Virus record (IMG/VR): IMGVR_UViG_3300029262_000344
Coordinates: 1 to 32,488 of that record
From: a virus
Strand: one strand, 5' to 3'
DNA: 32,488 nucleotides
Shown: positions 8,921 to 31,231 of the stretch, in pieces
Layout of the letters: each line of letters starts with the position of its first letter
Position numbering within the stretch: position 1 is the first letter of the stretch
Made by a program: the position numbers and the translations under genes
Notes under the pieces: generated by a model
What the model was told of the DNA's origin: nothing
Database searches by the model: none
Seen by the model: the letters and a program-made list of their open reading frames with translations, nothing else

Positions 8921-8930
8921 TTATAAATAT
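8921..8930 (-). promoter_or_regulatory. Late-promoter-like element before the 75-aa gene
   Basis: Coding-strand ATATTTATAA followed by TAAAAC, 14 nt before the ATG at 8906, just after the tape measure stop. Confidence 0.5.
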
Positions 8931-8934
8931 TAAA

Positions 8935-11307
8935 TTATTGTACTTCGTATAAACCTACTGCTGATAATTGTGGTTGTTTTGTTTGTTGAGTAAGTAGTGC
9001 TTCTAATAAATCGTTTGTTTTATTAGCTTGTTTGATCATTGGGGAGTTATCATTTAAAGGTATTACAGCTTCAGGACCTGCTTCACCCACAAGTGCGTTA
9101 GTCGGGCCTGTTACTATACCACCTTTAGCCATTTCGGTCGGCCTGTCTTCCCCAAAAACATTACCACTAATTCCATAATTAGTCTGTGCTGATGCTTCAG
9201 CAGTTTGGATTTGTGCTTTAATAGCACTATCTCCAAATTCTCCCCCAAATAAGAAACCAATCCCATTAAGTAAATCTTCTATAGCTGCTACACCTACTAA
9301 TACGGTTTGAATCATAGGGTCTAAAAAAGACATAATTGCTCCCACAAAACCAAAAAGTTTTGATATTATACTTACTATGGGCATTATAGCATTTCCTACT
9401 GTAACAAATACCTCTTTTAGTTTTTCAACAGTAGCGTTAAATTTATCTTGAGCTCCTACTTGATTATTTAGTCCCTCAACTCCTTTTTCTTCAAGTATTC
9501 GCATTGCTTCCGCTTCCCCTACTTGAGCCCTTAACGTCTCAAATTTTTTCTGGGCTGCCTCCGCGTCTTTTGCTGTAAGGCCTGAAAGTTTGTCCTGCAT
9601 TAATAATGTAGATGCTAAATCCTCTCTACTCATACCAACAGATTTTGCTAAAGCTTCCTGTTGTATTCTATTTAGCTCTCCAAATTCAGCAGAATCTCCC
9701 ATTTGTTCAGAGATTTCTCTAGCTACTCCTGCTATATCGTTATTTAAAGCAAATTGTCTTGCTTTTTCTAGGTTTATGTCTCTACCTAATAGTAATTCTG
9801 CTTGTAACTCATTTTGAATAGAAGATTCAAAATCGAGTAAGCTACCCGCTATGGCATCTACTTTACCCATTTCCATACCTAGAGACTTAGTAGTGGCAAC
9901 TGCCTCCGCTATTAGTCCAGGGTTTTTTCCTAATGATAGGGTGGTTGATGCCGATATATTACCTATTTCTTTAAGTAATTTTTGTTCATTAAGTAAAACT
10001 CCATTTTGTGTAGCTGATATTCTAGCCTGTGCTAAGAACTCCCCTGTAATGTCTTCTGTAGTTTTACTAGTTCCTAGTTGTAAACTAGCAATTCCTTGTA
10101 GTTCTTCATTAGTAAAACCTGACATGGTTCTAAGTTTAGTAAAAGATATCGCCATATCTTCAGACATCATTGAAGATGTTCCTAAAGCAGAATTTATTCC
10201 TTCAAATGTTTCTCTAATTCCCTTAGTAGTAACAAAAAGTTCACCTGAGGCTGAAGCCATGTTGGTCATTTCCATATTCATACCTAAGGCATCATCATAT
10301 GTCATACCAAATTCTTTGGCCATTTTTGATGATGAGGCATCCACGCCTTTCATAGCATCGACCAGTTCTTTAAGTAGATATAAAGGTCCTAAAGATTTTA
10401 AAAGGCTTTTACCTAAGCTTTTAATACCGGCCTGCATCCCTGTAACCCCCTTCTTTGAGGATTTAGTAATGGACTTCATATCACCATCACCTATGCCCAT
10501 TTTAGTAGCCTTTTTAGAAGCTGAGGTTCCTGAGAGTACCTTCCCGTTTTTACCTAAAAGTTTATCTTCTAGGCCCATACGTTTTACAGCATCAATAGTT
10601 AAGTCTTTTCCTGACTTTAAGGCTTCTTTATCTAATTTCCTTTGGTCCTGTTTTGCAGCAACTATATCATCTTGAAGACCCTGTTCTACGGCACTATCTG
10701 TTGCTGCTTGTCTTGCGGCATCCGACGCATTTTGAAACATGCTAGTAAACTTTCCTAAACCTGGAATAGCATCTGATATTTCATTTAAGCCATCAAATAG
10801 TCTAACACCACTTTGATTGTTAATGCTAGTTTGAAATTTTTCTACTTTTTCTATTGATTTTAAAAAATCTTCAGATTGTTTTACTCTTTCTTTTACTTCT
10901 GCTAGTTGTGCCCCTTCAAGCATTCCTGATTTTGCTGCAATATCTAGTCTTTTAAATTCTTGTTTGACTAAAGATTTTTTCTGTTGGATTTGCTTATTAG
11001 TCAGGGTTACTTGACCACCAAGGACTTGAGTAAAGTCTTCTGCTATGTTAACTAAAGATTTAAATGATTTTTTTGATACAGCTAAAGCATAGTTACTCTT
11101 TTGAAGTTCTTGGATACTATCTCCTAGAGACTTTGCAAAGTAATCTACATCACTATTAATAGCAAGAAGTTCTCTTCTTAATCTAGATAATTCAGCATTA
11201 GATTCTTTTAAACCTCCAGTAAACTTTTTATCAAAGTCTACCTGCCCCAATTCCTTTCTAATAAGGCGGATTTGTTCGTTAATCTCGTTTAAATTATTCT
11301 TAGGCAT
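8935..11307 (-). CDS. Tail tape measure protein (T4 gp29 counterpart)
   Basis: A 790-residue, mostly helical protein. The N-terminal 200 residues form predicted coiled coil (regular Leu/Glu/Lys pattern). The centre is rich in Ala, Ser, Met and Glu. A hydrophobic segment at about 639-688 has the membrane-interacting character expected of tape measures. The C-terminus has the signature string AKGGIVTGPTNALVGEAGPE and then AVIPLN (727-752), seen near the ends of many tape measure proteins. Tape measures set tail length and pass through the tube at injection. At about 0.15 nm per residue the length predicts a tail near 115-120 nm, longer than T4's. The gene follows the frameshifted chaperone gene, the standard order for tailed phages. 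Confidence 0.88.
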   Translation of the reverse strand: MPKNNLNEINEQIRLIRKELGQVDFDKKFTGGLKESNAELSRLRRELLAINSDVDYFAKSLGDSIQELQKSNYALAVSKKSFKSLVNIAEDFTQVLGGQVTLTNKQIQQKKSLVKQEFKRLDIAAKSGMLEGAQLAEVKERVKQSEDFLKSIEKVEKFQTSINNQSGVRLFDGLNEISDAIPGLGKFTSMFQNASDAARQAATDSAVEQGLQDDIVAAKQDQRKLDKEALKSGKDLTIDAVKRMGLEDKLLGKNGKVLSGTSASKKATKMGIGDGDMKSITKSSKKGVTGMQAGIKSLGKSLLKSLGPLYLLKELVDAMKGVDASSSKMAKEFGMTYDDALGMNMEMTNMASASGELFVTTKGIRETFEGINSALGTSSMMSEDMAISFTKLRTMSGFTNEELQGIASLQLGTSKTTEDITGEFLAQARISATQNGVLLNEQKLLKEIGNISASTTLSLGKNPGLIAEAVATTKSLGMEMGKVDAIAGSLLDFESSIQNELQAELLLGRDINLEKARQFALNNDIAGVAREISEQMGDSAEFGELNRIQQEALAKSVGMSREDLASTLLMQDKLSGLTAKDAEAAQKKFETLRAQVGEAEAMRILEEKGVEGLNNQVGAQDKFNATVEKLKEVFVTVGNAIMPIVSIISKLFGFVGAIMSFLDPMIQTVLVGVAAIEDLLNGIGFLFGGEFGDSAIKAQIQTAEASAQTNYGISGNVFGEDRPTEMAKGGIVTGPTNALVGEAGPEAVIPLNDNSPMIKQANKTNDLLEALLTQQTKQPQLSAVGLYEVQ

Positions 11308-11318
11308 ATTCTATTTTA

Positions 11319-11328
11319 TTATAAATAT
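11319..11328 (-). promoter_or_regulatory. Late-promoter-like element before the tape measure gene
   Basis: Coding-strand ATATTTATAA followed by TAAAAT, 11 nt before the ATG at 11307, between the end of the frameshift extension and the tape measure start. Confidence 0.5.
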
Positions 11329-11330
11329 TA

Positions 11331-11630
11331 TTATCTATAACTTGTTTTACCCTTATATGCATTAGATTCTTGAGCAAATGCTGGTGTGTTTACTTTACCA
11401 TCAGATGAAATTAGAGTTTTATCCCCATTACCATTACTTTTTGCATCTTCCGTCGCTTTATTTCTATTTTCGTAGTAAGAATTCATTTCAAAAAGTGTAA
11501 ATTTACGTAACCATATAGGCATATTATATATAGTATGCCAATCATATCCCCCGTTACCGTGAAATACTATGCTATGGATAGTCTGAAATAAATCTTTCCT
11601 AAATTCGGGCGCTATATTAGGCGTCAGGCC
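11331..11630 (-). CDS. Frameshift-encoded C-terminal extension of the gp26-like tail chaperone (gp51-like)
   Basis: This frame is open for 99 codons from GGC at 11630 to TAA at 11331, in the +1 frame relative to the chaperone gene. Upstream in the same frame two TAG stops lie just before the T run, and the first ATG is only at 11522. Yet the 36 codons before that ATG encode a well-formed sequence (RKDLFQTIHSIVFHGNGGYD, then WHTIYN) that runs smoothly into MPIWLRKFTLFEMNSYYENR. This looks like one domain of the kind found in small T4-like baseplate hub assembly (gp51-type) proteins. The simplest reading is translation as a fusion, about 337 aa in total. A separate 63-residue protein starting at 11522 is the alternative. 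A copy of the late-promoter-like element overlaps the junction to the next gene. Confidence 0.75.
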   Translation of the reverse strand, partial: GLTPNIAPEFRKDLFQTIHSIVFHGNGGYDWHTIYNMPIWLRKFTLFEMNSYYENRNKATEDAKSNGNGDKTLISSDGKVNTPAFAQESNAYKGKTSYR

Positions 11631-12345
11631 AAAAAAAGTTAAGCCCTATGGGGACTAGAACTTCCTCCCCTCCATCAAGCACTACAGTCATGTCTAAATC
11701 TGGTGACAGATCTCTAACATATTCTCTGAAGGCTCTAGCATCTTTTGCTAAGAAATAATTATCTACAAAGTCTCGAATAGATTTTTTTTCTTCATCACCA
11801 TCTACTGATGTGATCATGTATTTTAATCTTGTTGTAAGTTCAGGTGAGGAATTGGGGGAAATTTTCTTTAAACCTTTTAATTCTCTTTCTATTTTTTTAT
11901 CATCATTTCCATCTAAAAGTTTAAAACCTAAAACAGTACCTGTTTGTTCTAATTTGTACGTAAATGAATTATGGGAATCTTCTAAAAGGGAATAATCAGT
12001 TGATTTTGGGTTAAGTTCTGTTAAATCAATAACTTCTTCTTTACCTCTTATAGTTACTTTATATTCTTTACCATACCCCAAAATACGAGTAGCTACAAAT
12101 AAAGCATTTTTATCACCTGTAAATAAATCATCTATTTTTATGTCTTTATTTATAATTACAGCCTGTAATAATTTATCTAATACTGTCCCTTTTTGGATAA
12201 AAGACTGGTTAGTTAGTATATCCTCTTCTTTAGCAGTCATGTACTTTAATTCCACCTTACCACTAGATAGGGGATGGTCTTTAGGATACAATAAGCCTTT
12301 GGATGGTAATTCAACTTCTTCAGTTGGGAATTTAAATTCACTCAT
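11617..12345 (-). CDS. Baseplate hub assembly / tail chaperone protein, gp26-like (T4_baseplate family)
   Basis: A 242-residue protein starting EFKFPTEEVELPSKGLLYP, with the block MTAKEEDILTNQSFIQKGT (residues 36-54). Both are typical of the proteins annotated as gp26 in T4-like marine phages. It is cytoplasmic, with no signal or membrane segment. The C-terminus ends in NFFWPDA, and the two Phe codons lie in a run of seven T bases where a +1 slip would lead into a further 99 codons. Its place immediately before the tape measure gene is that of the G/GT tail chaperones of lambda-like phages, which coat the tape measure during assembly. It is separated from the upstream tube gene by a terminator. 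The chaperone role is inferred. Confidence 0.78.
   Translation of the reverse strand: MSEFKFPTEEVELPSKGLLYPKDHPLSSGKVELKYMTAKEEDILTNQSFIQKGTVLDKLLQAVIINKDIKIDDLFTGDKNALFVATRILGYGKEYKVTIRGKEEVIDLTELNPKSTDYSLLEDSHNSFTYKLEQTGTVLGFKLLDGNDDKKIERELKGLKKISPNSSPELTTRLKYMITSVDGDEEKKSIRDFVDNYFLAKDARAFREYVRDLSPDLDMTVVLDGGEEVLVPIGLNFFWPDA
11631..11637 (-). other. Candidate +1 (or -2) ribosomal frameshift site
   Basis: The coding strand reads AAC TTT TTT TGG in the chaperone frame. tRNA-Phe on the second TTT can move one base forward and pair perfectly with TTT again, after which GGC is read in the extension frame. The next zero-frame codon is Trp TGG, and a stop follows three codons later. A -2 shift would reach the same frame. 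A -1 shift would soon meet TGA and is therefore unlikely. Confidence 0.65.
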
Positions 12346-12403
12346 ATAATCTTTATTTAATTAAAACGTTGTTATCACTTATACATATACAAAATACAAA
12401 AAA

Positions 12404-12421
12404 GCTTGGCGTGAGCCAAGC
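12404..12421 (-). terminator. Intrinsic terminator after the tail tube gene
   Basis: Perfect 7 bp inverted repeat (GCTTGGC / GCCAAGC) with a 4-base loop. On the minus strand it is followed by TTTTTTGTATTTTG. It lies 29 nt past the stop of the tube gene and before the gp26-like gene, so it should lower transcription from the abundant tube gene into the assembly genes. Confidence 0.85.
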
Positions 12422-12449: not shown

Positions 12450-12938
12450 TTAGAAATTTAAGATACAGTAATCAGGTTGAACTGTTAATTGTAGTTCTAC
12501 TGCTGCACTTTCATCATCCCAACTATAATCTCCGAAATTAGCTTCAGTAATCATAGCTCCTTTGATAATCCATTCTGAAACGATATCACCTACAGGTCCT
12601 AATACGTTCATAGTTAAATCCTTTTTATAGAAATCACTATAACCATCTCTACCAGTTACTGATTCATGGTGTAATCTAACCCATTCCATACATGCTTGTG
12701 CACCACTTGGAGTAATTGGATCAAATAATGTCATTTGAATTGTATTCCAAAGTGTTTTACCTTTTACGTATCTTGCAACGTTGATATGGTTCAATTGAAC
12801 TGTACCTTGTGTTAATGAAACGGCTCCCATACCTTTAATTTGGTATGAAGGGATTCCATCTACATACAGTATAAACCTATTCTTTTGTTTAGGTTCGAAT
12901 GCTGTATAAAATATTTCGTTTGGGTCTAATACTGCCAT
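12450..12938 (-). CDS. 19: Tail tube protein gp19
   Basis: At 162 residues it matches the length of T4 gp19 (163 aa). It follows the sheath gene, as expected for contractile tails. Recognisable stretches are FEPKQKNRFILYVDGIPSY near the start (strand entering the tube fold), HINVARYVKGKTLWNTIQMT in the middle, and SAAVELQLTVQPDYCILNF at the C-terminus, a typical tube-protein end. The protein forms stacked hexameric rings that line the DNA channel inside the sheath. A late-promoter-like element sits 15 nt before the start and a strong terminator follows, in line with high expression. Confidence 0.9.
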   Translation of the reverse strand: MAVLDPNEIFYTAFEPKQKNRFILYVDGIPSYQIKGMGAVSLTQGTVQLNHINVARYVKGKTLWNTIQMTLFDPITPSGAQACMEWVRLHHESVTGRDGYSDFYKKDLTMNVLGPVGDIVSEWIIKGAMITEANFGDYSWDDESAAVELQLTVQPDYCILNF

Positions 12939-12953: not shown

Positions 12954-12963
12954 TTATAAATAT
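12954..12963 (-). promoter_or_regulatory. Late-promoter-like element before the tail tube gene
   Basis: Coding-strand ATATTTATAA followed by TAAAAA, ending 15 nt before the tube start codon and lying between the sheath stop and that start. Confidence 0.5.
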
Positions 12964-12977: not shown

Positions 12978-15017
12978 TTATTCAGGAAATGTTGCTCCAG
13001 TTGGTAAAACATTGAAATCTAAAATAACGAATTCCGCTGTTTTGGTTGGTTGTAAGAAAATCTGACCTACTAGCTCATTTCTATCAATTACATCCGGTGT
13101 ATTGTTTGTAGCATCCATTACTACTTTAAAAGCATATAATCCTTGTCTTTGTTGTACTGATTCTAAGTATGGGTTTACATTTGCTAAGAAGTTGTTTCTT
13201 GTTGCATTTGTATTTTGTTCAAATACTAAGTTATCTGATACTTGTGTTATATATCCTTTAAGTGCAATTAATAATCTACGCACATTTACTCTATCTAAAG
13301 CACTTGCTCTTTTCTGTAATGTTTTTTGTCCAAATACTACAACTCCACTTCCTGGGAATGTTGCTATTGGATTAACATTTGCTTCGTATAAAGTATCTCT
13401 ATTACCTGATGTTAATTTTCTTTCTGCTCTAACTACACTTCCCAACGCTCCTCTAAGCAAACCTGCTGGTGCGAACCATGGGTCTGATGATGCGTCTGTA
13501 AATGCGTATACTGCTGGAATATACGTTGAAGCTGGCGCCCAAACGGTTTGTCCAGTACCTGCGTCGACTGTTTGAAGCCATGGCCAATACGTCGCGGCAT
13601 ATGAACTATCATATTTTGTTGCTTCTGTTGTAACTGTACCAATTGATGCGTTAAACGCTACAGCATCAATTACTGCTATACAATCTGTTCTACCTTGTGC
13701 AAGTGTTACTAATTTTGTAACTGTACTCGAATGGTCTTGAGAATTTAATCCTGGTGCCGTAATTACATTAAATTGATAATCATCTGAATTGCTCAAAAGA
13801 TTAATTGATTCTGTGTAATTAGCTGGAGATAAACCTTGTATATCTGCTGCACTAATGTTTTCGTTAAATAATGCTGTTCTACTTCCAAAATTAACACCTG
13901 TAGCATTGTTAAATGAACCTGATTGTACTATTGGTAAACTACCTGTAAATACTGTTTTTGCAGTTCCATTATTGTCAAAATATTGTGGTGTAGGTAAGGT
14001 TACTGAGTCTACATAAATGTAAGCACTTCTTTGTGGATAATTACCGTTAGTTTTAACAAAGTAATCTGTTCCATCCTGTTCTACTGTATAATATGTGTCA
14101 CCAATAACTTTTGCTACATAATTTACTGCAGTTGGGTCTAATGATAAGTTATTATATGTTTCTAATACTGCTCTTGATGTTGCAGTATCGTTTCCTCTTC
14201 TTACTAATAGTGAGAATTGACCTGATGCCGTGTTTACAGATGCTACTTCCCATCTAATATTTTCTGCTGTACCTTCATTTAAAGTACCATTAGCTGAATC
14301 AACTGCCTGGTAGTTATTCATGTTAGCACCTTCAGATATTGTTTTAATTGTAAATGAAGCGGTTGCGTTTAAATCTGCGTTTGTAAGTGTAAATTGTGCA
14401 TCTGTTCCACCAGCTACTGTTGCCCCTAAGGATTGTGATGAAAAAGTTAATACCTCTCCTACTACATAGTCTGCACCTACAGTTGTAACTTCAATTGAAG
14501 AAACAGTACTTAAAGTTGCATCATTTGCTTGTGCAGCTAATTTAATTGTAAATACCGCACCTGCTCCTGCAAGGTCTGTTGTAGGTGTTAGAGATGGGAT
14601 TGATGTATTTCCTGTACTACCTGTAATGTTTAATGATGCCGCATCTTTAATTGAAGACAGTAATACGTTTTCACCTGATGCTATGGTACCGTTAGTTAAG
14701 CTACTAGGAACATCTGAGTTTGCTGGAGTAAAAGAACCTGTAACAACACGTGTTACTAGTAATGATTCTCCACCTTGTGCAAAGTAATTCCTTGCTGAGA
14801 TAGAATTTAAATATGTGTAAAATTGAGATCCACTTTCTACTGATGAACCAAAAATTGCTTCATATTGAGAAAAAGTAGACACCGCGGTTGGTATTCCAAC
14901 TGGTCCTTTTGTTGCTGGGCCAATAATAGCGGCACCAAAAGTAACAGGTCTAGCGCCAATAAACGATTGGTCATTTTCCCTTGCTAATACACCTGGAGAT
15001 AATAATGTTTCTGCCAT
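12978..15017 (-). CDS. 18: Tail sheath protein gp18
   Basis: A 679-residue protein, close to T4 gp18 (659 aa). The N-terminus has the sheath signature LLSPGVLARENDQSF and then TFGAAIIGPATKGPVGIP (residues 28-45). The C-terminal region holds the conserved sheath core: RVNVRRLLIALKGYI, FEQNTNATRNNFLANVNPYL and LQPTKTAEFVILDFNV. The middle (about 85-330) is a Thr/Ser/Ala-rich variable part, the surface-exposed insertion seen in many sheaths. The protein surrounds the tube and contracts at infection. It is preceded by a late-promoter-like element and by the small coiled-coil gene, and followed by the tube gene. Confidence 0.92.
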   Translation of the reverse strand: MAETLLSPGVLARENDQSFIGARPVTFGAAIIGPATKGPVGIPTAVSTFSQYEAIFGSSVESGSQFYTYLNSISARNYFAQGGESLLVTRVVTGSFTPANSDVPSSLTNGTIASGENVLLSSIKDAASLNITGSTGNTSIPSLTPTTDLAGAGAVFTIKLAAQANDATLSTVSSIEVTTVGADYVVGEVLTFSSQSLGATVAGGTDAQFTLTNADLNATASFTIKTISEGANMNNYQAVDSANGTLNEGTAENIRWEVASVNTASGQFSLLVRRGNDTATSRAVLETYNNLSLDPTAVNYVAKVIGDTYYTVEQDGTDYFVKTNGNYPQRSAYIYVDSVTLPTPQYFDNNGTAKTVFTGSLPIVQSGSFNNATGVNFGSRTALFNENISAADIQGLSPANYTESINLLSNSDDYQFNVITAPGLNSQDHSSTVTKLVTLAQGRTDCIAVIDAVAFNASIGTVTTEATKYDSSYAATYWPWLQTVDAGTGQTVWAPASTYIPAVYAFTDASSDPWFAPAGLLRGALGSVVRAERKLTSGNRDTLYEANVNPIATFPGSGVVVFGQKTLQKRASALDRVNVRRLLIALKGYITQVSDNLVFEQNTNATRNNFLANVNPYLESVQQRQGLYAFKVVMDATNNTPDVIDRNELVGQIFLQPTKTAEFVILDFNVLPTGATFPE

Positions 15018-15044: not shown

Positions 15045-15054
15045 TTATAAATAT
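15045..15054 (-). promoter_or_regulatory. Late-promoter-like element before the sheath gene
   Basis: Coding-strand ATATTTATAA followed by CAAAAC, 27 nt before the sheath ATG, in the spacer after the coiled-coil gene. Confidence 0.5.
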
Positions 15055-15072: not shown

Positions 15073-15324
15073 TTAAGTTATTGGTGTGAATTCACCTTTA
15101 TCTAAATCTATGTTACCAGTACCATACTTATCTTCTAATTTTTTGGCAGTTTTGTTTTGATCTTTAGATAATTTATTAAATTCCTCTAACAACTCTATTT
15201 TTTGTTTTTTTAAGGCATCAATCCTTATTTCTACTGTTCCTAACCCACCAATTATTTCATTGTTTCTTACTTGAAATTCTTGAAGAGTATTTATTTCTTC
15301 CTTTAATAACTTTTTAACTTTCAT
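15073..15324 (-). CDS. Small coiled-coil protein, 83 aa
   Basis: Almost entirely charged helix with heptad-like Leu/Ile spacing (residues 5-65), ending with a short tail LDKGEFTPIT. The N-terminus MKVKKLLKEEINTLQEF has the L-K-E pattern found on several other proteins in the window. It lies alone between gp15 and the sheath gene, with its own late-promoter-like element 18 nt before the start codon. The family is not recognised. A small tail or head-tail connector factor is possible; the only support is position and the promoter-like element. Confidence 0.6.
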   Translation of the reverse strand: MKVKKLLKEEINTLQEFQVRNNEIIGGLGTVEIRIDALKKQKIELLEEFNKLSKDQNKTAKKLEDKYGTGNIDLDKGEFTPIT

Positions 15325-15342: not shown

Positions 15343-15352
15343 TTATAAATAT
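15343..15352 (-). promoter_or_regulatory. Late-promoter-like element before the coiled-coil gene
   Basis: Coding-strand ATATTTATAA followed by TAAATT, 18 nt before the ATG at 15324, in the spacer after the gp15-like gene. Confidence 0.5.
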
Positions 15353-16846: not shown

Positions 16847-18031
16847 TTACGCGATATAAATTGTATACGGAACCTTCTGTAGTTCCTGCATTTTAGATTC
16901 TCCTTCTTGTGCTCTTCTTTCTAATGAAGCCATTCTTGAGGTTTCATCTAAGTAAGTTCTTAATCTTTCTATTAACGCTGTTTTTTCTGCTGTTGCCGCA
17001 GCTATTAAATCTGATTGGTTTAAAACAACATCTGCATTTGGTATTGGTATGCTACCATATTTACCTCTTACATACCCTAACATCTCTTTAGATAATGATA
17101 AAGTATATTCAAATATCCATTGACGCCCTACACTGTTAATCTCATTATAATTAGGGTTTGTAAAATTAGCATTTGACACATTAGTAACTCTATCTGCTGA
17201 CTGCATTACTGAACTTTGTATTCTTTCATCTCTTAAGATATACTCAAACCATATTTTAGGTGGGGTATTTATATCAAAATTTTGGTGGTTTGGAATTGGA
17301 AATACTCTTAAATTATCGTTTCGGATTTCGAATGAGTAATTGTTTCTTCTAATAGTTTCACTCATTTCAATTTGTTGAATAACAGCAATTTCATAGTTTA
17401 AAGGAGCCATTAAGTATCCTCCTTCAGCACCAAATCCACCTATGCCCATTATACCGGCAGCCATTACTCCACCAAATCCAAAGCCTTCACCTGCTCCTAA
17501 CATGCGACCCGCTGCAGGATAAGGATTTTCATAAAATACTCTTTTTACTTCTAAACCATGCATGTATTCAGATCCTGTAAGGCCGCTTGCAGACATAAAA
17601 GTTGTAAAGTTATAATCTTGTACACTAGATGTTAGAGTAAACGAACCTGAATAGTATGTTACATTACCCCCACTACCTGCTTCTTCTCCATATTGTTCTG
17701 ATAGTCTAACTATTGGTTCAAAACTCGGTGTTATAACCGCAGTATTTAAGTTTGATGATGTTGGTAACCCCTCAAGAGACAATTGATTATCTCGTATTTT
17801 ATATGCGTAAATCTCGTTACCATATGTGGTTACAGCCTCCTCAAAGGCAGTAAAAAACGATCCTGATTGGAGTTCGATATCTACTAAAGGGTAACCTAAT
17901 CTTCTAGCACAAAAATCTGCTACTTTTGGAGCATCACTTACAAAATTAGTGTTAGCATCATAAAACCCAAAGGGGGTTTCATCAGAGTCTGGTGTATATG
18001 TACTTGTCCCGCCCCATATTGGTATGTTCAT
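16847..18031 (-). CDS. 13: Neck protein gp13-like
   Basis: A 394-residue protein (T4 gp13: 309). The N-terminus is of the type annotated as gp13 in marine T4-like phages: MNIPIWGGTSTY, TPFGFYDANTNFVSDAPKVA, then RRLGYPLVDIELQSGSFFTA. A Gly/Met-rich low-complexity patch (about 180-210, GEGFGFGGVMAAGIMGIGGF) interrupts the middle, and a helical tail (about 345-385, EKTALIERLRTYLDETSRMA) closes it. The product should complete the portal vertex after packaging. A late-promoter-like element lies 36 nt upstream, so it may head the neck and tail transcript. Confidence 0.72.
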   Translation of the reverse strand: MNIPIWGGTSTYTPDSDETPFGFYDANTNFVSDAPKVADFCARRLGYPLVDIELQSGSFFTAFEEAVTTYGNEIYAYKIRDNQLSLEGLPTSSNLNTAVITPSFEPIVRLSEQYGEEAGSGGNVTYYSGSFTLTSSVQDYNFTTFMSASGLTGSEYMHGLEVKRVFYENPYPAAGRMLGAGEGFGFGGVMAAGIMGIGGFGAEGGYLMAPLNYEIAVIQQIEMSETIRRNNYSFEIRNDNLRVFPIPNHQNFDINTPPKIWFEYILRDERIQSSVMQSADRVTNVSNANFTNPNYNEINSVGRQWIFEYTLSLSKEMLGYVRGKYGSIPIPNADVVLNQSDLIAAATAEKTALIERLRTYLDETSRMASLERRAQEGESKMQELQKVPYTIYIA

Positions 18032-18067
18032 ATTATGTTTTTTAAGCTATTGATATGTGTTATATGT

Positions 18068-18077
18068 TTATAAATAT
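18068..18077 (-). promoter_or_regulatory. Late-promoter-like element before gp13-like gene
   Basis: Coding-strand ATATTTATAA followed by ACATAT, 36 nt before the ATG at 18031, after the phoH-like stop. It has the longest spacing of the ten copies. Confidence 0.45.
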
Positions 18078-18089
18078 GAAAAAAGTTCG

Positions 18090-18776
18090 TTAATCTCTAA
18101 AGGTTTGATAAACCTTAAGGATAGGTGAAACTATTTCATGTCTATGGTTTTTTAATAGAGTAGAGGTTCTAAATCCTTCTACATTTTCTTCTATTCTAGA
18201 TAGAAATGAAAAACCAGTTTCTCGTTTATCTTTTAAATCGATTTGAGCCATATCACCACATATCACCATTTTAGAACCTTTACCTAATCTTCCGATTACA
18301 GTTTCCATCTGGTTGTGGGTAACATTTTGTGCTTCATCTACAATAACAAATGCTTTTAAGAATGTTCTACCCCTCATAAATGCAAAGGGTACAATTTCTA
18401 TATTACCATTTTCTATTTCTTTTTCTATTTTTTCTTGACTATATAACATATGTAAATTATGATATATAGGTGCTAACCAGGGATCCATTTTCTCTCTAAT
18501 ATCTCCAGGCAAAAAACCTATGTCTTCTTTGGATACTGTAGGTCTTGTAATAACTATTTTATCTACTTGTTTTGTAAATAGCATATCTAATGCTACTTGT
18601 GTTGCTACTAAGGTTTTACCTGAACCTGCCATTCCCTTAAGCACCGTTATTGGTGAATCTATAATTTTTGCTTTAGCTTCCTTCTGTTCATCGTTAAGCT
18701 GTACGTTAAATTTGATTGGGTTTTTAGGTCTTCTCTTTTGAACGAATACATCATCCGTGTGGTGTTTCTTTGGCAT
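18090..18776 (-). CDS. PhoH-like P-loop ATPase
   Basis: A 228-residue protein with the full PhoH set. Walker A is GMAGSGKT (48-55), TRPTVSKEDIGFLPGD is at 77-92, Walker B is FVIVDEAQN (143-151), and the sensor-like string GDMAQIDL lies at 174-181. The short basic N-terminus (MPKKHHTDDVFVQKRR) precedes an LNDEQKEA entry helix. PhoH proteins are widespread in marine and T4-like phages. They are cytoplasmic NTPases related to helicases, sometimes linked to RNA metabolism; their role in infection is unsettled. Here the gene sits between capsid and neck genes, after a terminator and with its own late-promoter-like element, so late expression is likely. Confidence 0.9.
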   Translation of the reverse strand: MPKKHHTDDVFVQKRRPKNPIKFNVQLNDEQKEAKAKIIDSPITVLKGMAGSGKTLVATQVALDMLFTKQVDKIVITRPTVSKEDIGFLPGDIREKMDPWLAPIYHNLHMLYSQEKIEKEIENGNIEIVPFAFMRGRTFLKAFVIVDEAQNVTHNQMETVIGRLGKGSKMVICGDMAQIDLKDKRETGFSFLSRIEENVEGFRTSTLLKNHRHEIVSPILKVYQTFRD

Positions 18777-18795: not shown

Positions 18796-18805
18796 TTATA
18801 AATAT
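18796..18805 (-). promoter_or_regulatory. Late-promoter-like element before phoH-like gene
   Basis: Coding-strand ATATTTATAA followed by TAAACC, 19 nt before the ATG at 18776. It lies directly downstream of the capsid terminator, where a fresh promoter would be needed. Confidence 0.55.
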
Positions 18806-18817: not shown

Positions 18818-18841
18818 AAAACCCGACCTAAGCCGGGTTTT
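18818..18841 (-). terminator. Intrinsic terminator after the major capsid gene
   Basis: Inverted repeat AAAACCCG / CGGGTTTT (8 bp) with an 8-base loop. On the minus strand the right arm runs on into TTTTTTTATC. It lies 32 nt past the gp23 stop. Because both arms end in A/T runs it could also act on the plus strand. Confidence 0.88.
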
Positions 18842-23948: not shown

Positions 23949-24191
23949 TTATTTTTCTAATAATGTTTTAATGTCCTTAATAAAATCCTTAATTAAATCT
24001 GTACCTGTTACTACTGAGTAGCTATTAGGGTTTTCCCTATAATATTTTATAGTTTCTATTTTTGCTTGTCTTAATGGTTTTATCAAAGACTGTAATTCGT
24101 CTTCTATTTCATTAAAGGCATTAACTCTTTCCTCTTGGAATTTTAGTTTAGCCTTATCCTCATCCTCTCTTATCAATTTATAATTATACAT
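23949..24191 (-). CDS. Small charged helical protein, 80 aa
   Basis: A short, highly charged, helical protein in the head-core interval, 1 nt after the 386-residue gene and 4 nt before the 465-residue gene. It begins MYNYKLIREDEDKAKLKFQE and has a coiled-coil-like middle (residues 15-50). In size and place it parallels T4 gp67 or gp68 (80 and 141 aa), small prohead core components, but no sequence match is claimed. Tight spacing on both sides supports expression as part of the portal-to-protease unit. Confidence 0.6.
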   Translation of the reverse strand: MYNYKLIREDEDKAKLKFQEERVNAFNEIEDELQSLIKPLRQAKIETIKYYRENPNSYSVVTGTDLIKDFIKDIKTLLEK

Positions 24192-24192
24192 A

Positions 24193-25335
24193 TTAATATA
24201 ATTTTTTTACTTCAAGTCCTGACCCTTTCTGAACGAATGTGCCATTATTTTTAGGAACTAATTTATATTTAAATTGCTTTACATATGCATTATCTTTAAC
24301 GCCATCTTCTGTTGCTTTAGGACCAGGTCCTAAATCTTCTCCAGGTTGTTCTGCTGATTCATCTATAATATTAAAATGGTTTGGTAGATTTTTTTGGAAA
24401 GTTTTTATATCTTCTCTGTTAAAACCTAACATTTGCTGGTTCATTACATTTAGATATACTCCTCTACCTGCACTTTCTTTACCGGTATATGACCAATACC
24501 CTTTGGTAATGTTCATATCATCGTACTTTATGTTCCGGTCTACTTCAAAGCTTGGATACTGAGATTCATCTTCTTTCACTACAGTATATCCTAATTCGGT
24601 ATATGCTTCATCATCAGCTTTAGCACCTTTTTTTCTAAAAGCATATGGTGTTAAATAACCACCTGCTCCACCTGAGGTAGACATTTCTTCTACTTCTTCT
24701 TCTTCTTCTCTTAAACTATATTTTAAAATTGCAGAAGGACCTTTACCTTCTAAATCAACCGAAATCTTACCTTTTGATAATCTTTCAACTTCTTTTTTAG
24801 TTTCATCAGGGGTTTGTGCTGCTTTATAAAATACGTTTTTAATGTTTGTTGATTGTCCTTGTTTTGCTTTAAATATAGTAACTAAATCTCCACCTTGATA
24901 TCCTGTTCCACCTACATTAACCCATCCTCTTGATGTGTTGTAATAGACTGGGTATCTTGATTTTGCATTTAATATTAAATCAACAACCGTATTATAAACA
25001 GAAGAACTTTCTTCGTTCATATTTTCCCTCATTGCATTTTTATAGTCATCTGGGTAGTTATTTCTAACATGAGTACGAATTACATTTCTTAATGACCTAG
25101 CTTCTTGATATATCTCTAAAAACTTTTTATCGTCTTTTGCTTTTTGGTATACCTTTTTAGCTGTGGATGTTAATTCGTCAACATCTTCAACTAATTTATC
25201 TATATTAGGTATCTGTTGGATAGACCAAGAAATAGCACCTGTAGTAGAGTCAATATCTGTAACAGTAGATTTAGTACCATTATCAACTTTTACATCCCCT
25301 ACCTCAAATTCTTTAAGTTTATATTTGTACCCCAT
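24193..25335 (-). CDS. Putative head core or capsid-associated protein, about 380 aa
   Basis: I prefer the ATG at 25335; an in-frame GTG at 25353 would add six residues. From the ATG it overlaps the upstream gene's end by 17 nt. The N-terminal part (to about 200) is mixed, with a helical segment KLVEDVDELTSTAKKVYQKA. An acidic stretch (EEEEEVEEM) near 217 is followed by STSGGAGGYLTPYAFRKKGA, a Gly-rich string I recall from head proteins of marine T4-like phages. The C-terminal third is globular-looking. No enzyme motif or membrane segment is visible. It lies between portal and protease, so a core, scaffold or internal head role is likely. Confidence 0.6.
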   Translation of the reverse strand: MGYKYKLKEFEVGDVKVDNGTKSTVTDIDSTTGAISWSIQQIPNIDKLVEDVDELTSTAKKVYQKAKDDKKFLEIYQEARSLRNVIRTHVRNNYPDDYKNAMRENMNEESSSVYNTVVDLILNAKSRYPVYYNTSRGWVNVGGTGYQGGDLVTIFKAKQGQSTNIKNVFYKAAQTPDETKKEVERLSKGKISVDLEGKGPSAILKYSLREEEEEVEEMSTSGGAGGYLTPYAFRKKGAKADDEAYTELGYTVVKEDESQYPSFEVDRNIKYDDMNITKGYWSYTGKESAGRGVYLNVMNQQMLGFNREDIKTFQKNLPNHFNIIDESAEQPGEDLGPGPKATEDGVKDNAYVKQFKYKLVPKNNGTFVQKGSGLEVKKLY

Positions 25336-26185
25336 TTGCTGTTTTAATTTCACTTACTAGTTCATAATATTGTAATAAATCAACTAAATTATCATTGTCT
25401 ACCTTATCGGTTTTTGTTAATTCTATTAAAAACTTAGTAACCTCTGTAATTTTAATCTTTATTGCTTGATCTTTTATATTTTCGGTTAATGAGTTTAAAG
25501 TTTTCTTAAGTTCTGATATTTTAGAATTATAAAAATTTCTTAAACCTGGGGTAGAATCTACTGAATATATAAATTCTTTAAGTACTTGTTTTTGTTCATT
25601 ACTTAAACCATCATATTTTTCATTAAATTTTTCTAACAATATTCTATAAGTTAAAGTCCTTACATCTTTATCGTAAGTAGAAAACTCTGCTAGTACTTCA
25701 TCTTTTCTAGTTTGGTTAATTTTGGTTTTAGTTAAATATTCTAATAATGTAATTTTATTATTAATTAACTGTCCATTATCTACAATATCCTTAGAATTAA
25801 CACCTTCAATTAGGGTGTATAAAGCAGCGATTTCTTTATAGTTTTTAATTTGTGATCCAAAAAAAGTATTTAAATCATAATGTTTTTTTATTTCATTAAT
25901 CAAGTTATACTTTTGTTTTTTTAGGATACTTCTATTAAATGCCTTTGAGCTATTTAAAGTTGTATCTAAATACATTGTAGCTCTAGATTCAGTTAATACT
26001 TTAGATTTGGATATTGATTCGTATAATTTATATTCACGGCCTAATTCTGTTTTAACAAAATATTCTTTTAATAAGTCAATGGCAGGTGAGTCCTTACCTG
26101 ACAAAGTATCAGCTGTGATTTGTCTAACAAGCAATTCAAATAATATGCCTGTATTTTTATACTTTGAGTGTTTAATTTTCATCAA
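25319..26185 (-). CDS. Putative prohead core protein following the portal, 288 aa
   Basis: Helical, Lys/Leu-rich protein starting MMKIKHSKYKNTGILFELLV. N-termini of this kind (SKYKNTGILFELL) are, as I recall, common in unassigned proteins placed after the portal in marine T4-like phages. Strongly helical throughout, with coiled-coil potential at about 195-245 (LSNEQKQVLKEFIYS onward). No signal peptide or catalytic motif is seen. A late-promoter-like element ends 12 nt before the start codon. Location between portal and protease suggests a core component such as a portal-associated scaffold. The gene is clearly real; its function is inferred. Confidence 0.65.
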   Translation of the reverse strand: MMKIKHSKYKNTGILFELLVRQITADTLSGKDSPAIDLLKEYFVKTELGREYKLYESISKSKVLTESRATMYLDTTLNSSKAFNRSILKKQKYNLINEIKKHYDLNTFFGSQIKNYKEIAALYTLIEGVNSKDIVDNGQLINNKITLLEYLTKTKINQTRKDEVLAEFSTYDKDVRTLTYRILLEKFNEKYDGLSNEQKQVLKEFIYSVDSTPGLRNFYNSKISELKKTLNSLTENIKDQAIKIKITEVTKFLIELTKTDKVDNDNLVDLLQYYELVSEIKTANGVQI

Positions 26186-26197: not shown

Positions 26198-26207
26198 TTA
26201 TAAATAT
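26198..26207 (-). promoter_or_regulatory. Late-promoter-like element before the 288-aa core gene
   Basis: Coding-strand ATATTTATAA followed by ATAAAT, ending 12 nt before the ATG at 26185. Its upstream edge touches the last base of the portal stop codon. Confidence 0.45.
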
Positions 26208-28087
26208 TAAGATTTTAGTCGAGATTCATCAAGTAATGAAGAATCCGCTTTATCCTGTTCAAATATTAGTTGTTTTTTGTCTAAACCTTTAAATATGTCC
26301 TTATTTTTTAGGTAAGTAATTTTAGGGTCTTCAAATTCAGATAATCTAGGTTTTGGTTTTTCCATGTCTTTCATGGTTTTAACTCCTAAAGGATCTTTAC
26401 CAAAATTATTATCTTGTTTTCCTCTATTAGTAATACCATCTTTAGGGCGACCTAATTCTAAGTCATCAGCATATCCGTCGGGTACATTAGATGGGTCAGA
26501 CATTGTTCTACCTTTACCATATAATGAAGCTAAATCGTGAGGTGTTCCATATGATTGACCACTTTCTAAAGGATCGTTACCTTCTGCTAAAATTTGGTCA
26601 TTTCTGAATTTACGTTTAGAATCTTCACGAACCATATCTCTGTACTCATCGTATTGATCTTCACTAAAGTGATAAACATTATGATAAATCCAATCAGATG
26701 GGACTAAACCTTGTTCTAATAATGTACCTGCCAATTCGGATTTCGATTTCATTAACTCAATTCTTTCCTGATCATAAATGATAGAAGGAGTTGTCATTGA
26801 TAATTCAAAATTAGTTAACGTTTCATCTCTATACCCTTGTGTGTATAAATGAACTAAAGCTATTTTTTGTAATTCTGATAGTAGTATTCTTTGTATTCTA
26901 TCTATAGTACGAGCAAATCTAATGTCTTGTTGTGCTAAAGTAGATTTACCTGCTTCTCCTTCCCCATAACCCATAAATGATTTAGGTACTTTTAAGGCAG
27001 CAAATAATTTTTCTCTTAAATATTCAACATCAGCAATACCATCATATTGTAATCCAGGAGCGGTATCAATCTTAGTTGCACTATCATTACCACGAACAGG
27101 AATATAAAAATCTTCTAACATGTTTTGCATGTTATATTTTAAGTTATACTCCCCTGTTTTTTCATCCATCATTGGAGTACGTTTCATGTTATTGATAGTT
27201 TTCTGCATAAATGCTTCTACTTCATTAGGTGGAATTGCACCAACGTTTACATAAAATACTCTTTTTTCAGGGGCACGAGCAATTCTATGAATCAACATCG
27301 CGTCTTCCATTAATGTATATTGTTTAAATAATTTTCTAGCTGGTTCAATATAAGCTCTACCATAAGGTAAATAATTAACATCACCTACCATTCTAAAATG
27401 AGCCATTTCGTAGTTATCGTATATTATACCACTTCTATTGTCTCCTCCTTGATTAGGTACAGTATAACCACCACCTCCGTTAGAACCACCAGCAAATCCT
27501 TCAGGATTCCATCTATACTGTACTTCAGCAGGGTTTTTAGGGTTTTGTCCTTCAATTCTTTCAATATGGTACGCAGTATATGGTATTACGTTATAAACAC
27601 CAAATGTTTCAGCAATTTCCAATTTTAAGAAAAAATCACCATATTTACACATTTGTCTAACCCACATCCATAGATTAAATTCTACATTTAGTACATCATA
27701 GAATAAGTTGTATAGAATTTTTTGTACATCTTCATTAGAACTTCTAATTTGAAGTACTTCCCCCATATCATTTTTAAGTGTAGACTCATCTGCTATAATA
27801 TCAAGGGAGGATGCTATAATTGCATCTTGATCCATTATATCATATTCTGAATAGAGTTGTGTTCTTAAGTATTGATAGTTTAAATTAAACTGTGCCCCAT
27901 ATAATGAGGTAGGTGCTGATGAATAGACTCTATTGAATCTATCAACTAAAGCATTCGTTTCATACTGACCACTAGATTGGATATGACCCGAATCTATGGT
28001 CTTTACTTGGTCACCCCCTACGTTTCGTATTACTACGTCTGTTGAGAATAATCTCTTTAATCTTGTAAATACACTGTTATTCGCCAT
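26207..28087 (-). CDS. 20: Portal protein gp20
   Basis: A 626-residue protein (T4 gp20: 524). The gp20 signature YSEYDIMDQDAIIASSLDII with ADE after it is at 79-101. WMWVRQMCKYGDFFLKLEI is at about 138-156, and the helical clip/stem region has LIHRIARAPEKRVFYVNVG and then EVEAFMQKTINNMK. FARTIDRIQRILLSELQKIA follows in the stem or wing. The last ~120 residues are Gly/Asp/Lys-rich and probably disordered, which explains the extra length. Twelve copies form the DNA entry ring of the head, on which terminase docks. The gene follows terminase and has a late-promoter-like element 18 nt before its start. Confidence 0.93.
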   Translation of the reverse strand: MANNSVFTRLKRLFSTDVVIRNVGGDQVKTIDSGHIQSSGQYETNALVDRFNRVYSSAPTSLYGAQFNLNYQYLRTQLYSEYDIMDQDAIIASSLDIIADESTLKNDMGEVLQIRSSNEDVQKILYNLFYDVLNVEFNLWMWVRQMCKYGDFFLKLEIAETFGVYNVIPYTAYHIERIEGQNPKNPAEVQYRWNPEGFAGGSNGGGGYTVPNQGGDNRSGIIYDNYEMAHFRMVGDVNYLPYGRAYIEPARKLFKQYTLMEDAMLIHRIARAPEKRVFYVNVGAIPPNEVEAFMQKTINNMKRTPMMDEKTGEYNLKYNMQNMLEDFYIPVRGNDSATKIDTAPGLQYDGIADVEYLREKLFAALKVPKSFMGYGEGEAGKSTLAQQDIRFARTIDRIQRILLSELQKIALVHLYTQGYRDETLTNFELSMTTPSIIYDQERIELMKSKSELAGTLLEQGLVPSDWIYHNVYHFSEDQYDEYRDMVREDSKRKFRNDQILAEGNDPLESGQSYGTPHDLASLYGKGRTMSDPSNVPDGYADDLELGRPKDGITNRGKQDNNFGKDPLGVKTMKDMEKPKPRLSEFEDPKITYLKNKDIFKGLDKKQLIFEQDKADSSLLDESRLKS

Positions 28088-28105: not shown

Positions 28106-28115
28106 TTATAAATAT
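28106..28115 (-). promoter_or_regulatory. Late-promoter-like element before the portal gene
   Basis: Coding-strand ATATTTATAA followed by ACAATA, 18 nt before the ATG at 28087, just after the terminase stop. Confidence 0.5.
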
Positions 28116-28117: not shown

Positions 28118-29692
28118 TTATAGTAACCAACTAATATCCTCTGTTTCACCTTTATCATTTTTCATGCTATATGGGTTTTGAACTTGCCCACTAGCACCGT
28201 ATCCACCTTGATATGGTGTTCGATTAACTGTCATATTACTTAATGACTGTTTTGTTAAATCGATTCCTCTTTGTTTAAATTTTAATGCTGTATCTCTAAC
28301 ATACATACCCATTCCAAAAGCCATCACTAAATCATCATTATACCCCGATTGTGCCTCTGCTTTTCCATTTTTCCAAATGAAAACTTTCATTTCTTCTATT
28401 AATCTTCTAGAATTAATTGTTACCCCTTTATCAGCAATATATTCTTGAAATTTACCTATTATCATAGGTCTTGTTTTAGAAGACATTGTAAAACCAGCTA
28501 CCATTTTTGAATTGTCCTGATATCGGTCAAAATACGAATTAGCATTGGCTTCTCCACTCCGTTGTGAATAGTAAAGGTTAGAATAATTTCTATCTATTGC
28601 TACCTGTATTGTTGCCCAACCAATATTAGCATTTTCTATTACAAGTAATGCTTCATTATATTCTGTAGCTAAGCCGACTAATAAATGACCAAATTCTTTA
28701 GTACCTATTTGTCCTTTATACTCTGCTACTTGTACATTAGTTTCTACATCCATTACATGGCAAGTAGAAAAATCTTTTCCATCACCACGAGCTACATCTG
28801 CTAAAACCATATAAGATCTAGAATAATCTGCATTTTCCCAAACCCATAAATTCTGATCAGCACCTCTACGTTCTAAAGGATCCTTAACAAATGATTTTTC
28901 ATAATATTCTAAATGTTCATTATAAAATACTATATCACCGGATGTACTAAAATCACAGTCACATTCTTGAGCTGCTAATCTAGGGTCACCTAATAAATTA
29001 TCTTGAGCATCTCTCCATGCCTGATCTCTTTCAGGGTGAACATACCAAGGCAACTTAATAGGTAAAAAATCATTTTCTCCGGATTCTGCTTTAACCCATG
29101 TTTGGTGAAACCAATTACCTGTACCATAAGGGGTGGATAATACAATAGCACCACCACCCGTTGCTAGAGTTTGTTGGGCAGAGGCCCATGTTTCAGCAAT
29201 GTTGTCAATAAAGGCGGCTTCATCAATAATTAATAAAGATACTGCTTCTGAACGTGCAGCATCCGCATTTGAGGATTTTGCTTGTATTTTTGACCCATTG
29301 GTAAATCTAAGGGATAGTTTATTGTTTTCAACAGAATCTACCTTAAGCCATGAAGGTAAATTTTCCCACATGAATTGTACTTTAGTTACAAGATTTCTTG
29401 CTGTTGCTTGTGTAGTTGCTAATGCTAATACATTTCGATCTTTATGGAATGTCATTAACCACAAAGAGTACCCAGCGGTTAGTGTAGATATACCTAATTG
29501 CCTAGATTTTAATATTGCGCTATAATCATGGTTTTGAAATAACGTTAATACTTTTTCTTGGAATGGGTATAGGTTGAATTGTATGCGGCCACGTTGTGGG
29601 TGCTGTATATAACAGTATTTACGCATAAAATGTATGGGGTCTCGAGCACACTTAAGATACTCTTGGCGTATTACTTTTTTTAAGTCTGACAT
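28118..29692 (-). CDS. 17: Large terminase subunit gp17
   Basis: A 524-residue packaging motor (T4 gp17: 610). The N-terminal ATPase shows the variant Walker A SRQLGIST (63-70), Walker B LLIIDEAAF (153-161) with catalytic Glu, and the coupling motif VLSTPYGTGN (184-193). The C-terminal RNase H-like nuclease shows its acidic residues in VLADVARGDGKDFST (297-310), VIENANIG (351-358) and YNDDLVMAFGMG (451-462). The enzyme translocates DNA into the prohead and cuts the concatemer. It comes directly before the portal gene. No small terminase subunit is recognisable in the window. The gene starts 2 nt after the spanin-like pair. Confidence 0.95.
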   Translation of the reverse strand: MSDLKKVIRQEYLKCARDPIHFMRKYCYIQHPQRGRIQFNLYPFQEKVLTLFQNHDYSAILKSRQLGISTLTAGYSLWLMTFHKDRNVLALATTQATARNLVTKVQFMWENLPSWLKVDSVENNKLSLRFTNGSKIQAKSSNADAARSEAVSLLIIDEAAFIDNIAETWASAQQTLATGGGAIVLSTPYGTGNWFHQTWVKAESGENDFLPIKLPWYVHPERDQAWRDAQDNLLGDPRLAAQECDCDFSTSGDIVFYNEHLEYYEKSFVKDPLERRGADQNLWVWENADYSRSYMVLADVARGDGKDFSTCHVMDVETNVQVAEYKGQIGTKEFGHLLVGLATEYNEALLVIENANIGWATIQVAIDRNYSNLYYSQRSGEANANSYFDRYQDNSKMVAGFTMSSKTRPMIIGKFQEYIADKGVTINSRRLIEEMKVFIWKNGKAEAQSGYNDDLVMAFGMGMYVRDTALKFKQRGIDLTKQSLSNMTVNRTPYQGGYGASGQVQNPYSMKNDKGETEDISWLL

Positions 29693-29694
29693 GG

Positions 29695-30102
29695 TTATTT
29701 TAGTATAAGAATTACACCAGCGATTGCTATTAGACCTGCACTACCCATTAACTTAGTTTTAATTTTTTGTTTTTTTAAGGACAACATTAATTTTTTGTTT
29801 AAATCCTCTGCTAATTGAAATTGAGAAGACTTAGTATGTAATATAGAGTTAAAATTATTAATTTGAAAGTTAAGATTACTAATAACACTGTCCTTTAAAA
29901 ATAATTTATTTTCTAATAATGATACTTTTGTTGTTATTAAGGATAATTCCTTTTTAACACTATCACCATTTATTAAATCTTTAATTACGAGTTTTGCTAT
30001 TGGGGTTTTTAACTGTATCGAGGTACTGTCTATTGTATCGCTCTGTGAAAAACCTTTCAAGCTCATCATTGTTAAAAAAGTCAACAGAAATAATTTTTTC
30101 AT
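29695..30102 (-). CDS. Exported, C-terminally anchored protein; second member of a spanin-like pair
   Basis: A 135-residue protein with a clear signal peptide (MKKLFLLTFLTMMSLKGFSQ, cleavage likely after Gln20), a coiled-coil middle (about 50-110) and a C-terminal hydrophobic segment (LMGSAGLIAIAGVILILK, 117-134). It starts within the preceding gene in another frame, with 122 nt overlap, the arrangement of Rz/Rz1 lysis genes. Unlike Rz1 it has no Cys, so no lipobox. It would be tethered by its C-terminal segment rather than by lipid. The GFSQ-type signal end is typical of Bacteroidota. It could be a spanin component that joins inner and outer membranes at lysis, or another envelope protein made late. 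Confidence 0.6.
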   Translation of the reverse strand: MKKLFLLTFLTMMSLKGFSQSDTIDSTSIQLKTPIAKLVIKDLINGDSVKKELSLITTKVSLLENKLFLKDSVISNLNFQINNFNSILHTKSSQFQLAEDLNKKLMLSLKKQKIKTKLMGSAGLIAIAGVILILK

Positions 30103-30412
30103 TTGTTTGTTTTTTTAATGTGATAATCTTATTATCTTGTAGATTAATTTCTTTATCTAATTTTAATATATGTTGGTTTATTGAATCAATTTCATAAACT
30201 AACACATCATTTATACTATGTAATGAGTCTACTTTAGATTCTAATGTCTCTATTTGGATTTTATATTTATTTATATAAGACTCATCTTTAGGAGAAAATA
30301 AAATATAAAGGATGCCAGCAGACACAACAAATAAAGCTAAATAAACTATTACCCTCTCGCTAAAAGAACTTTTATATTGTCTGTGGTTATCAGTTGCTCC
30401 TTTATACGACAT
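29981..30412 (-). CDS. Inner-membrane coiled-coil protein; i-spanin (Rz)-like
   Basis: A 143-residue protein with a basic/polar N-terminus, one transmembrane segment (VIVYLALFVVSAGILYILF, about 21-39) and a long periplasmic coiled coil (about 48-112, ETLESKVDSLHSINDVLVYE onward). A C-terminal part contains NNDELERFFTERYNR. This N-in, C-out layout is that of the Rz i-spanins. It overlaps the next gene by 122 nt in a different frame. It begins 11 nt inside the end of the upstream 264-residue gene. I recall similar pairs in Bacteroidota phages. A spanin role is inferred from topology and gene arrangement, not from proven homology. Confidence 0.6.
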   Translation of the reverse strand: MSYKGATDNHRQYKSSFSERVIVYLALFVVSAGILYILFSPKDESYINKYKIQIETLESKVDSLHSINDVLVYEIDSINQHILKLDKEINLQDNKIITLKKQTNEKIISVDFFNNDELERFFTERYNRQYLDTVKNPNSKTRN

Positions 30413-31196
30413 TCTTTTCTAATTTAGCTACTAAAGACTCTAGTTCTTTTTTCTTAGCTGTTTTAGTTTTTAATTGGTCTTTAATTTTTTCTTTTTCAAC
30501 TCCATCTGCTTTACTATATTCACGAGCTATAGACTTCATCTCAGTAGTAATATCTTTTAATGCCTTAACAGCGATGTCTAATTTTTTATGTTTACCGCGA
30601 GCGGATTTTGCTAGTTTAACTGCGTCTTTTTCTGTATCTTTATCTGTATCATTATCTTCATTTTCATCTATTGATTTACCTTTAGTTTTAGCTTTTTTAA
30701 CTAAAGAATTCCAATTAGATAAATCATATTCATCCCAAGGTTCAACTTCCGTACCATTGAATGTTTTTTCTTGACCAGCTACGGGTTTAGAATTTAAATA
30801 ATGTATCTCATTTTGAGTTAATGAAAAGAATTTATTTACTTGGTCTTGAGTAGGCATTTTAGTTCTACCTTCATTTTCATTTAAACCAAGTGAACCTGCA
30901 CTATCTATTACGGCTTGAACAAATCCTTTTGTATAAGACTTAGTATCAGGTCTATTTTTTAAGATAGATTTATCAAAATGCATATCAAATGAATTTTCTC
31001 CAGCTTCATATCCCATTTCTTCTAAATCAGCTAAACCAATATTAGCTTCTTCGATACCAGCTTCATCTTTTGCTTTTTTTAGATCTTGAACGGCTGCTGT
31101 TAAATCTTTAGTTTGTGAAATTTCATCTTCAGTATTTTCAGATAATGAAGATAATATATTTTCTTTAATATAGTTTTTTAATGCTAATTTTTTCAT
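30402..31196 (-). CDS. Lysine/glutamate-rich protein of unknown function, 264 aa
   Basis: Soluble, hydrophilic protein. The N-terminus KKLALKNYIKENILSSLSEN contains I-K-E and looks like the short amphipathic leader of several head-region proteins here. A middle region (about 65-165) appears globular (SYTKGFVQAVIDSAGSLGLN, then YDLSNWNSLVKKA). The C-terminal 100 residues are Lys/Asp/Glu-rich and coiled-coil-like. There is no catalytic motif. It is preceded by a late-promoter-like element, and so may be a late virion or core protein that starts the unit running through the spanin-like pair, terminase and portal. A position two genes before terminase invites the idea of a small terminase, but nothing in the sequence supports it. 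Confidence 0.6.
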   Translation of the reverse strand: MKKLALKNYIKENILSSLSENTEDEISQTKDLTAAVQDLKKAKDEAGIEEANIGLADLEEMGYEAGENSFDMHFDKSILKNRPDTKSYTKGFVQAVIDSAGSLGLNENEGRTKMPTQDQVNKFFSLTQNEIHYLNSKPVAGQEKTFNGTEVEPWDEYDLSNWNSLVKKAKTKGKSIDENEDNDTDKDTEKDAVKLAKSARGKHKKLDIAVKALKDITTEMKSIAREYSKADGVEKEKIKDQLKTKTAKKKELESLVAKLEKNVV

Positions 31197-31221
31197 TGTA
31201 TAATATTATAGTTAGGTTTTA

Positions 31222-31231
31222 TTATAAATAT
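31222..31231 (-). promoter_or_regulatory. Late-promoter-like element before the 264-aa gene
   Basis: Coding-strand ATATTTATAA followed by TAAAAC, 25 nt before the ATG at 31196, right after the stop of the NadR-like gene. As the first copy in transcription order it may mark the start of the late region. Confidence 0.5.

Follow-up and report, generated by a model that had tools for sequence, protein, structure and literature searches.

Probable late-promoter elements in the head-tail gene cluster

The window analysed here, the whole stretch of 32,488 nucleotides (nt) of IMG/VR record IMGVR_UViG_3300029262_000344 (positions 1-32,488), carries the head-tail gene cluster of a T4-related myophage, and its coding strand is the minus strand. 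A first-pass annotation had proposed that a short element, ATATTTATAA, recurs here in ten exact copies on the coding strand, always between a stop and the next start codon, as a candidate late promoter. The ten copies were found exactly so, and the range of 11-36 nt between element and start codon was reproduced. Nine copies are wholly non-coding, and the tenth overlaps the portal stop codon by one base. Of the two closest named relatives of the window, Flavobacterium phage immuto has a portal that is 55% identical and a capsid that is 67% identical over the aligned pieces, and the identities of the tape-measure, tail-tube, tail-sheath and PhoH-like genes rest on its homologues.

All features described in this paragraph and the next lie on the minus strand. 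Along the tail genes, the element lies at 8921-8930 (14 nt before gene 8679-8906), at 11319-11328 (11 nt before the tape-measure gene, 8935-11307), at 12954-12963 (15 nt before the tail-tube gene, 12450-12938), at 15045-15054 (27 nt before the tail-sheath gene, 12978-15017) and at 15343-15352 (18 nt before gene 15073-15324). The copy at 18068-18077 stands 36 nt before gene 16847-18031, a homologue of the immuto putative head completion protein, and that at 18796-18805 stands 19 nt before the PhoH-like gene (18090-18776). The remaining copies are found at 26198-26207, 12 nt before gene 25319-26185 and 15 nt before its ATG, with the last base of the element in the portal stop codon; at 28106-28115, 18 nt before the portal gene (26207-28087); and at 31222-31231, 25 nt before gene 30402-31196.

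Two intrinsic terminators belong to this arrangement. One, with a 10-bp stem and a T run (18818-18841), comes after the capsid gene and has the element at 18796 just downstream of it. The other, with a 7-bp stem and a T run (12404-12421), separates the tail-tube and tail-hub genes, and its hairpin was scored on the plus strand too. Directly after the latter lies a one-base variant of the element, ATATGTATAA (12379-12388), 33 nt before the tail-hub gene (11617-12345). As the first-pass annotation had it, there is no element at the scaffold, capsid and terminase genes, but the 'gp26-like' gene placed in the same group is this hub gene with its one-mismatch copy. A further ATATGTATAA at 24184 was rejected as a promoter on account of a conserved start codon plus coding sequence.

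The non-coding DNA of the window amounts to 1105 nt (3.4%), and all ten coding-strand copies fall within it; dinucleotide-shuffled junction DNA would hold 0.116 copies of ATATTTATAA. An eleventh exact copy, the sole antisense one in the window, lies on the plus strand at 7200 within a gene. The count over both orientations, inside and outside genes, thus comes to ten coding-strand copies at junctions and one antisense intragenic copy, against a chance expectation of 1.07 for both strands, and none of 100 shuffles reached 11. Copies with one mismatch occur across the whole window at background level (25 seen, the 11 exact ones included, and 22.5 expected), so that we place weight only on the exact copies and on ATATGTATAA after terminators.

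Conservation among related phages

Relatives of the portal protein are encoded on at least 598 IMG/VR stretches. The T4-related clade is large, and Flavobacterium is the host of at least one of its members. The other named relative is 'Microcystis' phage Mel-JY01 (PP395634.1; L093, L232), with a portal 47% and a capsid 48% identical to those of the window; it clusters with the Flavobacterium phages by portal, capsid and the sigma factor described below.

In the 80 best related environmental contigs, 263 copies of ATATTTATAA stand on the coding strand and five on the opposite strand, all five intragenic. Among 333 distinct non-coding stretches the ratio is 129 coding to 0 antisense, and nearly all single-base variants remain at background level. 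The form [A/C]TATTTATAA is present in every one of 48 distinct portal upstream regions, while the length and sequence of the surrounding junction vary. A profile of 75 non-redundant elements from ten genomes, in which the core was the search pattern and the flanks alone are informative, reads A (67%) or C (33%), then TATTTATAA, then T (67%), A (76%), A (91%), A (89%) and A (67%). No conserved sequence was found on the upstream side of these 75 elements, in keeping with the earlier remark that the element has no obvious -35 partner; a TTG at -33 accompanies 7 of 67 late elements.

In immuto, ATATTTATAA shows a strand bias of 8 to 0, and 15 of 17 [A/C]TATTTATAA sites precede a start codon in the orientation of the gene. 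In Mel-JY01 the core takes the form ATATTTATAT. It stands mostly 30-38 nt upstream of late genes, and a Shine-Dalgarno sequence lies within this interval, which argues that the late element is not a ribosome-binding signal. A tandem pair of late elements, with a spacing of 27 nt, directly follows the capsid terminator in L043 (13691/13718), L070 (13924/13951) and L088 (9282/9309).

Direction of reading and promoter class

The late promoter of T4 is TATAAATA, served by the gp55/gp33/gp45 system (PMC2988020, PMC7892883), and the first-pass annotation had described the present element as its mirror image. The plus strand does read TTATAAATAT, which includes the T4 octamer, and it is this that would favour reading the element on the opposite strand as a T4-like promoter, with antisense transcripts starting from gene junctions. 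The resemblance costs nothing, because the frame TAT-NN-ATA, common to TATAAATA and to the TATTTATA of our coding strand, is its own reverse complement: a T4 octamer on the opposite strand is the same thing as a two-base change on the same strand. There is then no separate mirror orientation, since the same-strand element equals the octamer with its central AA changed to TT, and this same-strand reading requires no flipped machinery. The conserved flank, the AAA tract, lies on the gene side of the element only. In the window and in many relatives the capsid transcript is terminated just ahead of the element by a strong coding-strand terminator, whose stem sequence differs between phages, so that the next gene needs its own promoter; antisense reading would leave such late genes without one. 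The variant ATATGTATAA stands in for the element after terminators in the genomes L014, L019 and L022, and before the hub gene in the same arrangement in the window and in the relative G001. In T4 numbering its change falls at -10 on the sense strand and at -9 on the antisense strand, and T4 gp55 takes the -12, -9 and -8 bases into pockets while -10 is not inserted (PMC7892883); the tolerated change would thus alter a pocket base only in the antisense reading. As a control, TATAAATA occurs 11 times on the coding strand and once antisense in a late stretch of T4. Together with the intragenic position of the antisense copies, the flank, terminator and variant arguments favour, at the level of sequence, an element that acts along the genes on the coding strand. 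The option that a late factor reads the coding-strand sequence thus gains over antisense transcription from the junctions, to which we give only a slight chance.

A somewhat larger, still small, chance goes to an ordinary host promoter, either of the Bacteroidota housekeeping sigma factor (consensus -33 TTG, -7 TAnnTTTG) or of the sigma70 type with a TATAAT box. The element is AT-rich and overlaps TAnnTTT if a T precedes it, yet that T is present at only 17% of the late elements. The suggestion that TATAA(T) is the working core loses ground likewise: the final T is only 41-67% conserved, and the ATATTT to its left is invariant except for the A/C at its first base. A second strand-biased motif of these genomes resembles the host consensus. 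This motif, TTG-N17-21-CGTATATT, lies mainly in the early half; its CGTATATT part occurs on the minus strand of the window at 1891-1898 and 32033-32040, and also in immuto, G013, G015 and G001. A TTG at the right distance upstream is found at 41 of 56 such early motifs, against the 7 of 67 late elements given above, and the motif is likely a host-sigma early promoter on sequence grounds. The two classes are distributed differently over the genome halves, delimited by gene content. Late elements number 11 in the late and 3 in the early half of immuto (early motif, 2 and 10), 11 and 7 in G015 (0 and 14) and 11 and 2 in G001 (1 and 5); G013 follows the same trend (9 and 3 versus 4 and 5), which is not significant there. 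Some immuto copies are fused with the early motif: CGTATATTTATAA merges the early -7 motif with the late element at 90657-90669 (L009) and 128568-128580 (L010), which speaks for the host reading, and such sites are possibly dual early/late promoters. The least probable of the three alternatives is a role in RNA, as a translation-start enhancer or mRNA-processing site. The A-rich setting 11-36 nt before start codons would suit it, but the element occurs at some genes only, in many cases those that come first behind a junction or terminator, its distance to the start ranges from 3 to 57 nt, the Mel-JY01 element lies upstream of an intervening Shine-Dalgarno sequence, and a strict 10-mer directly after terminators suits a promoter better.

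A candidate sigma factor

The T4 gp55 family model phrog_234, picked via T4 gp55, gave one weak match in immuto (E 0.008), gp118, a protein of about 230 amino acids annotated as 'hypothetical protein'. Relatives of gp118 are found in Mel-JY01 (E 1.6e-38), weakly in RM378 (E 5.4e-7) and on at least 600 IMG/VR stretches. With family models, 15 of 23 members matched Sigma70_r2 and 10 of 23 the late-sigma family, all weakly and Sigma70_r2 below the cut-off; the second late-sigma family, phrog_12791, matched in no relative. An AlphaFold model of a 91%-identical gp118 homologue (predicted local distance difference test, pLDDT, 76) served as structure query. Its best VIA alignment is T4 gp55 in the open complex (7d7c_F, Z 10.1, 123 residues) with a root mean square deviation of 9.3 Å, which is probably caused by domain displacement. 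Many sigma factors come next in the list, with their region 2 aligned at 2-3 Å over about 90 residues. Foldseek alone gave no PDB match below E 0.001, and T4 gp55 came first only in the VIA re-alignment. The persuasive point is that nearly all rows are sigma factors, and the model accordingly suggests a sigma region 2 fold for the gp118 family.

T4 gp55 holds A-12 with Tyr97, A-9 in a pocket of Asn13 and His95, and A-8 with Thr99 (PMC7892883). In a joint, marginal alignment of the family with T4 gp55, in which the promoter-pocket residues N13, L54, R57, F86, H95, Y97 and T99 were compared, Tyr97 is invariant and F86 is kept, and N13, R57, H95 and T99 are replaced. We hypothesize from these sequences that the replaced A-9 pocket residues agree with the change of A to T at -9.

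Sigma, portal and element occur in the same genome in immuto, G013, G015 and several shorter contigs. A search of portal-bearing window-type contigs found no sigma gene, because these fragments end before reaching it. A link to the window group is provided by contig G004, whose portal is 82% identical to that of the window: walking from its tail-fibre side led to G037, with genes up to 93% identical to those of G004. G037 encodes a sigma 45% identical to immuto gp118. The eight late elements of this contig all stand on the coding strand, and the sigma stop codon precedes the first by 17 nt. No close overlap emerged when window-type proteins were compared with the sigma loci by BLAST.

The late transcription of T4 is activated by the sliding clamp gp45 (PMC2988020, PMC7892883). 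The gp45 clamp family (phrog_223) was not detected in ten records of relatives. A gp44-like clamp loader is present in Mel-JY01 and in window-type G001 (17516-18412, E 3.9e-76), and none was detected in immuto or G013, so close relatives such as G001 and immuto may differ in replication machinery. Tentatively, and with the odds against it, the clade may have re-tuned its late sigma and promoter as a pair, with AA changed to TT and the -9 pocket residues replaced, and the immuto branch may run late transcription without a clamp.

A probable late promoter of the clade

We infer, with a probability of roughly 87%, that this large T4-related clade uses [A/C]TATTTATAA(T)AAA as its late promoter, which acts on the coding strand and is probably read by a phage sigma factor of the gp55 type. 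The original suggestion of a sigma-gp55-type late promoter is thereby well supported by the enrichment in the late half, the lack of a -33 TTG, the terminators upstream and the gp55-like sigma in the same genomes. Several points weigh on the other side. The sequence similarity between the sigma and gp55 is marginal (phrog_234 at E 0.008 in one genome; hhalign E 0.034, probability 1.5%), PDB sequences searched with a profile of the sigma gave no match, and Z 10.1 falls where helical models can match unspecifically (Z under about 13). The window itself contains no sigma gene. The first 50 kb of RM378 showed no recurring element, despite its weak sigma homologue, and a handful of copies are only 0-6 nt away from the annotated start, which leaves too little room for a start site as in T4.

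Late transcripts of T4 begin about 6 nt beyond the octamer, and apart from those few copies the spacing between element and start codon is compatible with such a start site. The gp55-type sigma would probably direct the host RNA polymerase to the late element. If the T4 geometry applies here, TATTTATA would span roughly -13 to -6 without any contact at -35, and the transcript would begin some 5 nt beyond the 10-mer, leaving short A-rich leaders of about 7-32 nt in the window. Start sites, timing and binding of the gp118-type sigma to the late element are all predicted from sequence.

What is new is a probable variant of the T4 kind of late promoter together with a previously unrecognised T4-type sigma; no description of either was found in the open-access full text searched, most subscription papers and preprints lying outside its coverage. 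In an abundant but little-studied phage group, the late-gene signal can now be read and a candidate sigma can be named, and the promoter can guide the annotation of late operons in uncultured phages. With immuto in culture, the late-promoter reading can be tested, the need for a clamp included.

Other genes in the window

On the minus strand at 29695-30412, two small overlapping genes, one membrane-anchored and one with a signal peptide, resemble a spanin pair by eye. The C-terminal end of a baseplate-region protein of 1179 amino acids (2794-6333, minus strand) reads, also by eye, like an N-acetylmuramoyl-L-alanine amidase domain (LHHTAGSS...THYIIEREG).

Comparison with known systems

Like the T4 late promoter, the element precedes virion genes as a short AT-rich box of the -10 kind with a strict sequence; it has no -35, AT-rich DNA lies just downstream, and the same phages encode a protein with a gp55-like sigma region 2. 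Unlike TATAAATA, it reads TATTTATA on the coding strand, with TT for the central AA, so that the strict T4 consensus is not matched. Its specificity is also one base longer on each side ([A/C] before, A after) and runs into the AAA tract, and the system differs from T4 further in the length and marginal similarity of its sigma and in the undetected clamp family. The host-type promoter of Bacteroidota is likewise AT-rich and has its counterpart in the early motif of the same phages, but the late element has neither the TTG at -33 nor the T that opens the -7 box. Another parallel is Aeh1, whose variant late promoter is CTAAATA from -12 (PMC1524935): there too the late box of a T4-related phage is altered along with a diverged gp55. 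In Aeh1 the changes are at -13/-12, whereas here -10/-9 are changed and -12 is retained. T4 and the present clade thus form a natural pair for studying how a one-domain sigma factor shifts its specificity.

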